Shown here in pieces: positions 35,367 through 38,336 of a stretch of 64,000 nucleotides of DNA (positions within the stretch are counted from its first letter, which is position 1; every line of letters begins with the position of its first letter). The translations under genes were made by a program, and so were the position numbers. The notes below the pieces were generated by a model. That model searched no databases, was not told the origin of the DNA, and worked only from the letters and a program-made list of their open reading frames with translations. This stretch comes from Sulfuriferula multivorans (GTDB taxonomy: Bacteria > Pseudomonadota > Gammaproteobacteria > Burkholderiales > Sulfuriferulaceae): positions 1 to 64,000 of the forward strand of contig NZ_BGOW01000001.1 of the NCBI RefSeq assembly GCF_003851125.1. The letters are read 5' to 3'.

Positions 35367-36029
35367 ATGGAAAACAAAGATAACGGTAAAGCTGAGGTGA
35401 ACCAGCCAACGATTAGCGCAGGCGAGCCATCCGGCGTGAGTGAAGCCCGCCGTCGTTTTTCCAAAATCGGATTAACCGGCTCAGCCGTCATTTTCACTTT
35501 GGCCAGCCGTCCTGTCTGGGCAGGACAGTGCAGCATTTCCGGCATGATGTCGGGTAACGTGTCCTCACCCGGTCAGATCACATGCGCTGGCTGCACCCCC
35601 GGTTTCTGGAAAAACAACCATGTCGATACTACCTCGCATGACTGGATTGGCACCGGATATAAGACCACGGAGACATTTAACTCGGTCTTCGGTGTCGAAA
35701 AATACAAGATTACTTGCAATCCGACCCTTACTCATGTTTACACTTTGTACGAAGTGCTGTGGTTGCAAGGCAGCGAAGACCCGCTCTTTCCCGAACTGGG
35801 TGCGCATGCAGTGGCGGCACTGCTTAACGCTGCCTCCTTCCCCGATCAGTTCGGTTATACCGCTTCGGAAATCCTGCAGCTATTCAGAAACGCAACCAAT
35901 CATGAGGAACTGAAAAACATGCTGGCGATTCTGAATCAGCGCGATTGTCCAATATCAGGCGATTCGGGCTCTCAACCAGAAGGTACAGGATTTACTTGCC
36001 CAACGAGCGGCAATGGCAACTCCCATTGA
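35367..36029 (+). CDS. exported six-cysteine protein with CTPGFWKNN motif, candidate substrate of the PqqD/HprK/nucleotidyltransferase cassette
   Basis: A 220-residue protein with a long polar N-terminus (1-27), a Tat-like signal RRRFSKIG (28-35), a hydrophobic stretch and a likely cleavage after VWA (52). The mature part has six cysteines (55, 73, 76, 117, 194, 211) and CTPGFWKNN at 76-84, a motif type (TPG[FY]WKN) seen in various secreted bacterial proteins. The tail after C194 is rich in Ser, Gly, Thr and Asn, ending at GNSH. No enzymatic motif is visible. AAGGAT is 7 bases before the ATG. A PqqD-like protein, an HprK-like kinase and a nucleotidyltransferase follow directly, so it is probably their substrate. 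Tat export would mean it is folded, and perhaps modified, before secretion. The function is inferred. Confidence 0.7.
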   Translation: MENKDNGKAEVNQPTISAGEPSGVSEARRRFSKIGLTGSAVIFTLASRPVWAGQCSISGMMSGNVSSPGQITCAGCTPGFWKNNHVDTTSHDWIGTGYKTTETFNSVFGVEKYKITCNPTLTHVYTLYEVLWLQGSEDPLFPELGAHAVAALLNAASFPDQFGYTASEILQLFRNATNHEELKNMLAILNQRDCPISGDSGSQPEGTGFTCPTSGNGNSH

Positions 36030-36044
36030 ATAATCCGTCTGAAT

Positions 36045-36344
36045 ATGCCTGCTCGAGGTAAAGACACACTTTGGCAAATTACGCCCGGTCACGGGTTACT
36101 GCTGCATACCTGGGGCGACGAATACGTGATTTTCGACAAAGCCTCCGGCGACACCCATCTGATCAGCGAACCAGCAGGTAGCCTGCTGGAATGCTTGCAG
36201 CTTGGGGCGGCCAGTTTTGAGGATTTGGCCAAGCGAGTCTTCGGCCAGACAGAAACTTTACCGAAACTGGAATCTCATCAAATTCTCAAAACCATGACGG
36301 AAGAGTTGACCCGTCTTGGCTTGATTGCCGAATTTCACATTTGA
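36045..36344 (+). CDS. PqqD-like peptide chaperone (HPr-rel-A system type)
   Basis: A 99-residue PqqD-fold protein. PqqD domains act as recognition elements that bind a leader sequence and bring the substrate to modifying enzymes. The length and the central segment (WGDEYVIFDKASGDTHLIS, then a C-terminal LTRLGLIAEF helix) fit the small PqqD-related proteins associated with HprK-related kinases. It begins 15 bases after the six-cysteine protein and its stop overlaps the TTG start of the kinase. It probably binds the N-terminal part of the six-cysteine protein. There is no radical SAM partner in the window, unlike classical PqqD. Confidence 0.7.
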   Translation: MPARGKDTLWQITPGHGLLLHTWGDEYVIFDKASGDTHLISEPAGSLLECLQLGAASFEDLAKRVFGQTETLPKLESHQILKTMTEELTRLGLIAEFHI

Positions 36345-37264
36345 CTGCTTCAGCCCGATATAGCTTGGCCGAACTGCGCAGGCGCTTGGCCGGCCCGGGC
36401 ATTTATTTAAGTATGGGCGCGTTTGTTACGCATGTGCAAAGCGCCATCCCCAGTGTGGCGGAGGGTATCCATCAGATATACCATGATGCCCAGATTCTCG
36501 AAGAGCAGCGTTTCGCTGATTTCCATGTCGCACTGGAACGCCCCGCCAGCCACCGCCGCTGGCTCAGGCCGCAGGTGATCTTCCGCTTCGATGGTTACAC
36601 CCCATTCAAGCCATTACCGGTCAACCAGGCGTTCGCCTTGTTCGAATGGGGGCTCAATTGGTGTATCACCACCCATGCCCATCAGTACCTCATCATCCAC
36701 GCGGCAGTTATCGAAAAAGAGGGGTTTGCCGCCATACTGCCAGCGCCGCCGGGGTCAGGCAAAAGCACGCTCACGGCCGGCTTGGTGAATCGCGGCTGGC
36801 GGCTACTGTCGGACGAACTTGGCTTGATCTCGAAAGCCGGCTTGATCCAACCCGTGGCACGCCCTGTCAGCCTGAAAAATGAGTCCATCGAAGTTATTCG
36901 CCACTTCGCCTCCGAAGCATGCATCGGCCGGGTCGTAAAGGACACGCTCAAAGGCACGGTCTCGCACATGCGCGCCCCTACAGAGAGCGTTGTCCGGGCA
37001 CATGAACAAGCACGCCCCGCCTGGGTGGTATTCCCGAAATTCGACACCGGCACAGCCGCCACTCTGAAGCCGATGGCGCCTGCCCAGGCATTCCTGGGTC
37101 TGGCACGCAATGCTTTTAATTACAGTCTGCTAGCGGAAGACGGATTCCGGCGCTTGGCCACGCTGATGGATACCACCACCGCTTACAGTTTCCATTATGG
37201 CAACCTGGAAGAGGCCGCCAGCGTGTTCAATGCACTGGCAGAACAGCAGCGTGCATACGGCTGA
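36341..37264 (+). CDS. HprK-related kinase A
   Basis: A 307-residue protein related to HPr kinase/phosphorylase. Its P-loop PPGSGKSTL lies about residues 138-146, followed by GWRLLSDELGLI (about 152), which occupies the place of the catalytic acidic motif in HprK. It lacks the N-terminal sensor domain of true HprK, and no HPr or PTS gene is near. Similar kinases phosphorylate peptides in some lasso-peptide clusters. The TTG start overlaps the TGA of the PqqD gene (TTGA), and its end overlaps the nucleotidyltransferase start by 14 bases, so the three are strictly co-translated. The substrate is inferred to be the six-cysteine protein. Confidence 0.8.
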   Translation: MTASARYSLAELRRRLAGPGIYLSMGAFVTHVQSAIPSVAEGIHQIYHDAQILEEQRFADFHVALERPASHRRWLRPQVIFRFDGYTPFKPLPVNQAFALFEWGLNWCITTHAHQYLIIHAAVIEKEGFAAILPAPPGSGKSTLTAGLVNRGWRLLSDELGLISKAGLIQPVARPVSLKNESIEVIRHFASEACIGRVVKDTLKGTVSHMRAPTESVVRAHEQARPAWVVFPKFDTGTAATLKPMAPAQAFLGLARNAFNYSLLAEDGFRRLATLMDTTTAYSFHYGNLEEAASVFNALAEQQRAYG

Positions 37265-38336
37265 TTGCGCCATTATTCGCGCCCTGCGCGAGCCTACTGG
37301 CCTGGTTCAGGCCAGTGCCGGCGAATGGGATGTAATCATTCGCCAAGGCAGGCGTGCCGACCTGCTCGCCCGACTACACTGGACACTGGAGCAAACCGGG
37401 GTACTCAATACGCTGCCTGAGGCCACGCGCGCCCACCTCGAATCAGCGCAAGTCATCGCGCGCAAACAGGCCGGTGCAGTCAAATGGGAGGTCAGGAAAA
37501 TTTGCCAAGCACTGGTAAACATCGGCGCACCACTCATTCTGCTCAAAGGCGCGGCCTATTGTATGGGCGGCCTGATGGCCAGTCAGGGACGCATATTCTC
37601 CGACGTCGACATCATGGTGCCAAAAACATGCATTGACCAGGTCGAAGCCGCGCTCATGCTGCACGGGTGGGTCGCCACTCAACATGACGCCTACGACCAG
37701 CGTTACTACCGTACCTGGATGCACGAAATTCCACCGCTCATGCATCTCAAACGCCAGTCTGTAATTGACGTGCATCACGCCATACTGCCCGAAACCGCGC
37801 GCCTGAAACCCGATCCCGCTTTACTTCTCGCCGCTGCGCAAGCCATTCCTAGTGAGCCTGGACTGTTCACCCTGGCACCCGCGGACATGGTGCTGCACTC
37901 AGCCAGTCATTTATTCTGCGGCGAATTCGAGCATGGCTTGCGCGATTTGTCGGACATCGACTTGCTGCTGCGCGAATTCGATACCGTGGCAGGGTTCTGG
38001 GATGACTTGGTGCCGCGCGCGCAACGACTGGATCTGGCGCGGCCGCTGTATTACGCGCTGCACTGGGCGGTGCGGTTGTTTGCTACGCCGGTACCTTCCC
38101 CGGTGCTGCACGAGATCGACGCATGCGCGCGTCCCTCCACACCGGCAAAGCAGCTCATGAATACGCTGCTACAACGTGCCTTGGTACCTGATCACGTCAG
38201 CTGCCACGATGCACTGTCTGTCCCGGCGCGCGGCCTGCTCTATGCGCGCGCCCACTGGCTGCGCATGCCGGCGCATTTACTGGCTTATCACCTGGCGCAC
38301 AAGGCGCTATTTCCACCACACTCGGCGGCAAATTAA
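37251..38336 (+). CDS. nucleotidyltransferase-family protein (NTP_transf_5-like)
   Basis: A 361-residue protein with a polymerase-beta-type nucleotidyltransferase core: KGAAYCMGGL, then GRIFSDVDIMV (about 113-123) with the metal-binding DxD. Proteins of this family also accompany HprK-like kinases in lasso-peptide clusters, where they are thought to modify the phosphorylated peptide further. I prefer the GTG at 37251; an ATG at 37197 lies deep inside the kinase gene. It is last in the four-gene unit and its 3' end overlaps the convergent cbpM by 4 bases. Its product may add a nucleotide or nucleotide-derived group to the substrate. Confidence 0.75.
   Translation: MHTADCAIIRALREPTGLVQASAGEWDVIIRQGRRADLLARLHWTLEQTGVLNTLPEATRAHLESAQVIARKQAGAVKWEVRKICQALVNIGAPLILLKGAAYCMGGLMASQGRIFSDVDIMVPKTCIDQVEAALMLHGWVATQHDAYDQRYYRTWMHEIPPLMHLKRQSVIDVHHAILPETARLKPDPALLLAAAQAIPSEPGLFTLAPADMVLHSASHLFCGEFEHGLRDLSDIDLLLREFDTVAGFWDDLVPRAQRLDLARPLYYALHWAVRLFATPVPSPVLHEIDACARPSTPAKQLMNTLLQRALVPDHVSCHDALSVPARGLLYARAHWLRMPAHLLAYHLAHKALFPPHSAAN

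Follow-up and report, generated by a model that had tools for sequence, protein, structure and literature searches.

A four-gene cassette is present on the plus strand of Sulfuriferula multivorans contig NZ_BGOW01000001.1, at positions 35367-38336 of the window (the whole stretch of 64,000 nucleotides that was analysed). Encodes a protein with a twin-arginine translocation (Tat) signal, a PqqD-like protein, an HprK-like kinase and a nucleotidyltransferase. The Tat-signal protein is the constant partner of the cassette. The cassette is read as a system by which proteins bound for Tat export are modified in the cytoplasm: a fixed serine would be phosphorylated and then extended before export (probability about 0.6). 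In the sequences compared, the element kept among substrates is the Tat signal together with a serine motif, not a fold.

Cassette in the window

35367..36029, plus strand: putative type-1 Tat-exported substrate protein, 220 residues; assigned from the Tat-signal protein found near the kinase in the locus survey below; no Pfam or NCBIfam model above cut-off.
35448..35522, plus strand: region of the Tat signal peptide, residues R28-R29 to A52, containing a T-L-A-S-R-P element; assigned from conservation of the twin arginines, the cleavage site being our own reading.
35529..35564, plus strand: candidate modification motif C55-x2-S58-x3-S62-G-N64-x-S66, just past the predicted cleavage site; assigned from conservation in type 1.
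35592..35936, plus strand: helical TPGxW domain, about residues 76-190; assigned from an AlphaFold2 model.
36045..36344, plus strand: PqqD-family peptide chaperone, 99 residues, NCBIfam profile TIGR04353 (50.3 bits, cut-off 35).
36341..37264, plus strand: HprK-related kinase A, TTG start, NCBIfam profile TIGR04352 (395.7 bits, cut-off 200).
37251..38336, plus strand: nucleotidyltransferase NTP_transf_5, Pfam profile PF14907 (2e-51, 175.4 bits, gathering score 31.2); GTG start likely, alternative ATG at 37197.

The coordinates agree with an earlier note made from the sequence, which had described four genes in one direction with the last three overlapping; the Tat gene stop lies 15 nucleotides ahead of the PqqD start, and the PqqD stop overlaps the TTG start of the kinase by 4 nucleotides. 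All four identities given in that note (Tat-signal six-cysteine CTPGFWKN protein, PqqD-like protein, HprK-like kinase, nucleotidyltransferase) were confirmed. The Tat protein carries A-R-R-R-F in the signal, C-T-P-G-F-W-K-N, and six cysteines after the signal; the conserved twin-arginine signal marks it as a predicted Tat substrate. Genes that read from their translations as hemA-, prfA- and prmC-like lie upstream of the cassette, and a minus-strand pair of DnaJ-related appearance lies downstream. The genome of the organism contains one TIGR04352-type kinase and one PF14907 protein.

Constant Tat-signal partner

Of 369 genomes sampled from the class of the organism, 41 have a kinase above the TIGR04352 cut-off; in the phylum sample of 398 genomes, 61 do. 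The first sample of loci consisted of 120 kinase loci, 40 from the class scan and 80 named loci (the best 80 of at least 293 confirmed relatives), and includes at least two duplicates (L099 = L032, L129 = L050). Profiles for the PqqD-like protein, the nucleotidyltransferase and the Tat protein, built during the analysis, were run on these loci. A Tat-signal protein is encoded within about 3 kb of the kinase in 118 of the 120; in the two others (L062, L150) the kinase lies no more than about 600 bases from a contig end. PqqD matches were obtained in 120 of 120 loci. All but L142, whose contig stops 730 bases past the kinase match, also gave a nucleotidyltransferase match (119 loci, the match being fragmentary at the end of a contig in two). 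Kinase, PqqD and nucleotidyltransferase thus occur together in 119 of 120. The Tat gene is immediately 5' of the PqqD gene in most loci, other arrangements being found in L100, L130, L132 and L140. Substrates fall into 107 distinct proteins of type 1 and nine of type 2; the 107 include that of L132, a short and irregular protein that was weakly matched. In the type-2 loci L055, L057, L066 and L068-L070 the nucleotidyltransferase gene is upstream on the opposite strand.

The wider sample consisted of 55 loci (L277-L331) from the phylum scan and an earlier scan. The Tat protein is adjacent to the kinase in 49 of 55 (eight of these, from Sphingomonadaceae-type loci, were picked by a pattern that includes CxxS or a variant), elsewhere in the genome in five, and not found in one. 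The five unlinked substrates (genomes G385, G426, G438, G477, G618) were found with the type-2 profile, and in each C-x-x-S-F is followed by the last 1 to 8 residues of the protein. In four of these five genomes a PqqD gene stands beside the substrate, and no PqqD match was obtained near the kinase. Two plasmid loci conform: that of Vibrio alfacsensis (L255) encodes a type-1 substrate and that of Sphingomonas parapaucimobilis a type-2 substrate with the C-terminus TCFLSVQNPRT, both annotated as 'hypothetical protein'.

The earlier note had proposed a Tat protein of the CTPGFWKN type as the constant fourth gene and had named, as grounds for giving this up, enzymes occurring without such a protein and with another conserved partner. 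Because the Tat partner is constant in both samples, the proposal came through this comparison as regards the Tat-signal protein; the CTPGFWKN fold is not the constant part.

Substrates of type 1

Conservation was computed over gap-trimmed columns for 107 aligned proteins. The twin arginines are conserved at 98% and 100%; after the signal, the motif cysteine at 99%, the first serine at 98% and the second serine at 99%; in the domain, a second cysteine and an asparagine at 96% each. The motif cysteine and two serines are the most conserved positions outside the twin arginines, and C55, S58 and S62 are invariant in the A2 alignment of 40 sequences. In the raw sequences the cysteine stands mostly 1-5 residues ahead of the first serine, and Ser-x3-Ser is the fixed core. 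A strict C-x2-S-x3-S was rejected as a description of all type 1, since cysteine spacing varies and only 22 type-1 matches were obtained in 78 named loci. TPGxW is less conserved and is lost in L083, L084, L115 and L148. A second, unlinked type-1 substrate is encoded in a kinase-positive genome (L197:3905-5101, minus strand); Tat signal and CTLSGMMSGNVS are kept, TPGYW is lost.

In the AlphaFold2 model of the window protein a helical domain is present, with block means of the predicted local distance difference test (pLDDT) of 85-96 at residues 91 to 190. Confidence is low around the motif, and the motif region would fit an accessible tail. A structural search with the model gave no meaningful match in the PDB (best E 2.7).

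Profile A2 of type 1 matched 48 of 369 class genomes. Of the 41 kinase-positive class genomes, 30 gave full-length matches, covering signal, motif and domain and picked by hand from the profile ranges; of the 328 kinase-negative ones, none did (Fisher p 3e-35; the genomes are not independent). Ten A2-positive class genomes are kinase-negative: in G080, G084, G099 and G215 the match is to the domain only, and in G036, G101, G184, G285, G318 and G360 to short Tat peptides. In the phylum sample A2 matched 27 of 398 genomes, of which 24 have a kinase over the cut-off (20 of the 23 that were checked, plus four from the class scan); the remaining matches (G522, G633, G691) are domain-only. As the kinase-negative matches are domain-only or short peptides, the signal and motif part goes with the kinase and the domain part does not.

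The TPGxW domain is a module of other proteins apart from the cassette (L191-L196, L202, L210, L213), which share with type 1 a C-terminal domain matched by profile A2 but are covered by it in the domain part only. L191 also contains DUF7507; the TPGxW domain itself matched no Pfam model in the domain-only proteins scanned. Two of the nine hosts (G015, G249) have a kinase over the cut-off. L191-L193, L195 and L196, from the class and with a visible start, have no arginine pair in the first 60 residues. The six cysteines or the CTPGFWKN fold were rejected as the constant feature, the domain being absent from type 2 and found without the cassette elsewhere, and TPGxW being lost in some type-1 proteins.

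Substrates of type 2

Not recognisably related to type 1 beyond the signal; characterized by C-x-x-S near the C-terminus. Invariant in 25 type-2 proteins are the signal residues R, R, K, P and T, one cysteine past the signal, and the C-x-x-S, the invariance of which is partly built in because the 25 rows were gathered with a pattern holding CxxS. Most substrates are about 180-250 residues long. The smallest type-2 precursors are L055 (74 residues, ending in SCNASLI) and L297 (82 residues, ending in SCLDSFNGL), with a predicted mature part of only some 13-20 residues. The earlier note had taken the substrate to be a folded protein rather than a small ribosomally synthesized and post-translationally modified peptide (RiPP); this suits the window protein, for which a folded-domain model was obtained, but not L055 and L297, which come near small RiPPs.

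An automatic pattern search for the motif was run over 175 loci (A 40, B 78, C 55, plasmids 2). Matches were obtained in 156 (A 35/40, B 72/78, C 47/55, plasmids 2/2), against a background in which each pattern occurs in 39 of 1306 neighbouring genes. Loci without a reliable automatic label were judged by eye.

Kinase and substrate type

H120, K141, D158 and E159 of the kinase are invariant in 35 of 35 sequences. The tree of 175 kinases requires one change between its 115 type-1 and 55 type-2 rows (branch support 97), five rows being unlabelled and 25 labels set by hand. A labelling that was automatic except for 18 rows assigned by hand, with five left out, required 8 changes; after hand correction of seven labels taken from wrong or overlapping open reading frames, one was required. 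Type-1 loci in records named alphaproteobacterial (L141, L142, L146) group with the type-1 kinases, and type-2 loci from the class of the organism group with the type-2 kinases. The split therefore follows the substrate and not only taxonomy.

This co-variation bears on an unlikely alternative, by which the enzymes target something else (a small molecule, lipid or cell wall), the Tat protein being only a co-regulated effector. Consistent with such a target, the link between enzymes and substrate is itself indirect and the TPGxW domain also occurs elsewhere. Against it, substrate type tracks kinase clade, unlinked substrates retain the motif, the substrates form two families not recognisably related, and PqqD is a peptide-binding family.

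Nucleotidyltransferase

K98, G99, D117, D119 and D172 (numbering from 37254) are invariant in 32 of 32 sequences. The hDhDh signature and third carboxylate are present (D117, D119, D172); each carboxylate presumably has the role usual for this fold. Catalytic-type residues are retained, and activity is predicted from them. The model has a mean pLDDT of 94. In a fold search the best solved matches were small generic nucleotidyltransferases, none with an E value better than 0.01, so that the donor is not readable from the fold. CdnE and AbiEi are among these weak matches, as would suit an enzyme from a defence or toxin-antitoxin unit, grouped here by accident. The constant gene set (the three enzymes in 119 and the Tat protein in 118 of 120 loci) already makes that explanation hardly credible.

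In Deinococcus radiodurans a lasso B2-type protein carries PF14907 as a fused domain, which links the family, though not necessarily its function, to lasso genes. The fusion of nucleotidyltransferase and B2-type protease lies on plasmid MP1 (L340:3851-5167), with no annotated lasso cyclase within 4 kb in an incomplete gene table.

Comparison with known systems

Since the window kinase and PqqD-like protein pass both curated cut-offs, they belong to the NCBIfam 'HPr-rel-A system' (TIGR04352, TIGR04353), and the enzyme cassette is this named bioinformatic system. The names are carried in the Sphingomonas parapaucimobilis plasmid record. The two NCBIfam models cover the kinase and PqqD only, while the Tat partner is left as 'hypothetical protein' in the two plasmid loci. 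No paper on the system names was found in open-licence PMC. A weak profile relation exists to ScmC of the SynChlorMet cassette, but the kinase scores 21.5 bits against a ScmC cut-off of 125, and the window PqqD does not match ScmD.

Lasso-peptide tailoring, the comparison drawn in the earlier note, is judged the right one. The lasso B1 protein is PqqD-like. Here and in the lasso systems, an HprK-like kinase, accompanied in the cassette and for PsmK by a nucleotidyltransferase, is placed with a ribosomal precursor bearing a known or candidate target serine. According to two reviews, PadeK (paeninodin) and PsmK phosphorylate serine; the target of PsmK is the C-terminal serine of pseudomycoidin, PsmN is required for one or two hexoses on the phosphoserine, and the chemistry of the PsmN transferase is unsettled (PMC9266682, PMC8498205). 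Unlike the lasso systems, the cassette has a substrate with a Tat signal and mostly about 180-250 residues, and no match to the B2-type protease family PF13471 was obtained anywhere in the genome of the organism, as the earlier note had supposed for the locus. No asparagine-synthetase-like lasso cyclase or radical S-adenosylmethionine enzyme is present among the four cassette genes, no genome-wide search having been made for either. Lasso kinases are reported to have a His-Lys-Asp-Asp catalytic set (PMC9266682).

Proposed mechanism

By analogy with these lasso precedents, the PqqD-like protein would bind the precursor, probably at the Tat signal region. The HprK-like kinase would then phosphorylate the fixed serine, S58 and/or S62 in type 1 and the serine of the C-terminal CxxS in type 2. 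The PF14907 enzyme may then extend the phosphoserine by a hexose or a nucleotide, in the manner reported for PsmN. The finished protein would be exported by Tat and the signal peptide removed.

The following observations weigh against this reading. In the kinase, the candidate fourth catalytic residue is Glu and not the Asp of lasso kinases, the positions being matched by our own reading of the published motif. The single type switch on the kinase tree means that relocation of the motif is seen once. Two or three serines are conserved in type 1, so the modification site is not unique; the first is Thr in the Vibrio plasmid substrate, at whose locus no PqqD profile match was obtained. The motif lacks Cys in L318 (type 1) and is irregular in L132, L319, L320 and L190; type-2 L042, L044 and L063 lack Cys and retain Ser followed by Ile. 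At least two labels of the motif search (L291, L311) are due to chance and several are of the wrong type. The eight Sphingomonadaceae-type substrates are circular as evidence for the motif, having been found with a pattern that contains it. In the wider sample, no substrate of any kind was found for L315 (G564), and the PqqD profile gave no match near the kinase in 10 of 55 loci. Domain-only L210 has arginine pairs near its start, and a loose motif pattern precedes the domain in L192 and L194 (two of nine); these controls are imperfect, the N-terminus of L194, L202 and L213 lying outside the available sequence.

A different fate of the serine is rather improbable: activated by kinase and transferase, it would be eliminated to dehydroalanine, and attack by the neighbouring Cys would give a lanthionine-like ring (CxxS) on the exported protein. 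Class III/IV lanthipeptide enzymes eliminate kinase-activated serine by this route, and Cys stands 1-5 residues before Ser in most substrates. No lyase or cyclase is present among the four genes, however, and Ser is kept in the four proteins without Cys named above.

Diverged kinases and short Tat peptides

HprK-like kinases under the TIGR04352 cut-off adjoin short Tat peptides, mostly of 57-90 residues, with the signal RRxFLKKxAYVAPAILTLxAxPAxA. Gly-Ser occurs a few residues past the predicted cleavage site in the 18 peptides read; two of the peptides were scanned, and neither scored above the cut-off of any family. A profile of this signal matched 22 of 369 class genomes, nine of them at TIGR04352 loci. 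Among the other 13, ten have a kinase match above 40 bits, nine of these on the same contig no more than about 3 kb away; G048, G272 and G353 have no kinase match above 40 bits. At seven loci with short Gly-Ser Tat peptides (L181, L183, L184, L185, L187, L351, L369), PqqD-like matches were obtained in five and PF14907-like matches in three.

The signal Thr is invariant in the 25 type-2 proteins and in 13 short peptides, as would be expected if the kinase controlled export by phosphorylating the Thr of the T-L element and not the mature protein. This is very unlikely: Thr is present in only 27 of 38 rows of one alignment, and the conserved serine motifs and the transferase are left unexplained.

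At L198:5917-12880, genes for an HprK-like kinase, PqqD and a nucleotidyltransferase-like protein stand near frames resembling a Tat-exported oxidoreductase set, possibly another kind of substrate.

Taken more broadly, the modification reading holds that the Tat signal doubles as a RiPP-type leader docked by PqqD, that a phosphodiester-linked sugar or nucleotide is placed on the fixed serine, and that products from a peptide of about 13 residues to a protein of about 200 are exported, in a system widespread in Pseudomonadota and extending to the diverged kinases with Gly-Ser peptides. This extended form is offered tentatively, at a little under even odds.

Significance

An orphan cassette, known by a family-database name, gains a putative substrate and a candidate residue. 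With the kinase at the frequency found in class and phylum, the same reassignment could apply to many 'hypothetical proteins'. If the modification reading is true, tailoring enzymes of the lasso type also act on exported proteins and link RiPP chemistry to the modification of proteins, and Tat would be the route that allows a protein modified in the cytoplasm to leave the cell.

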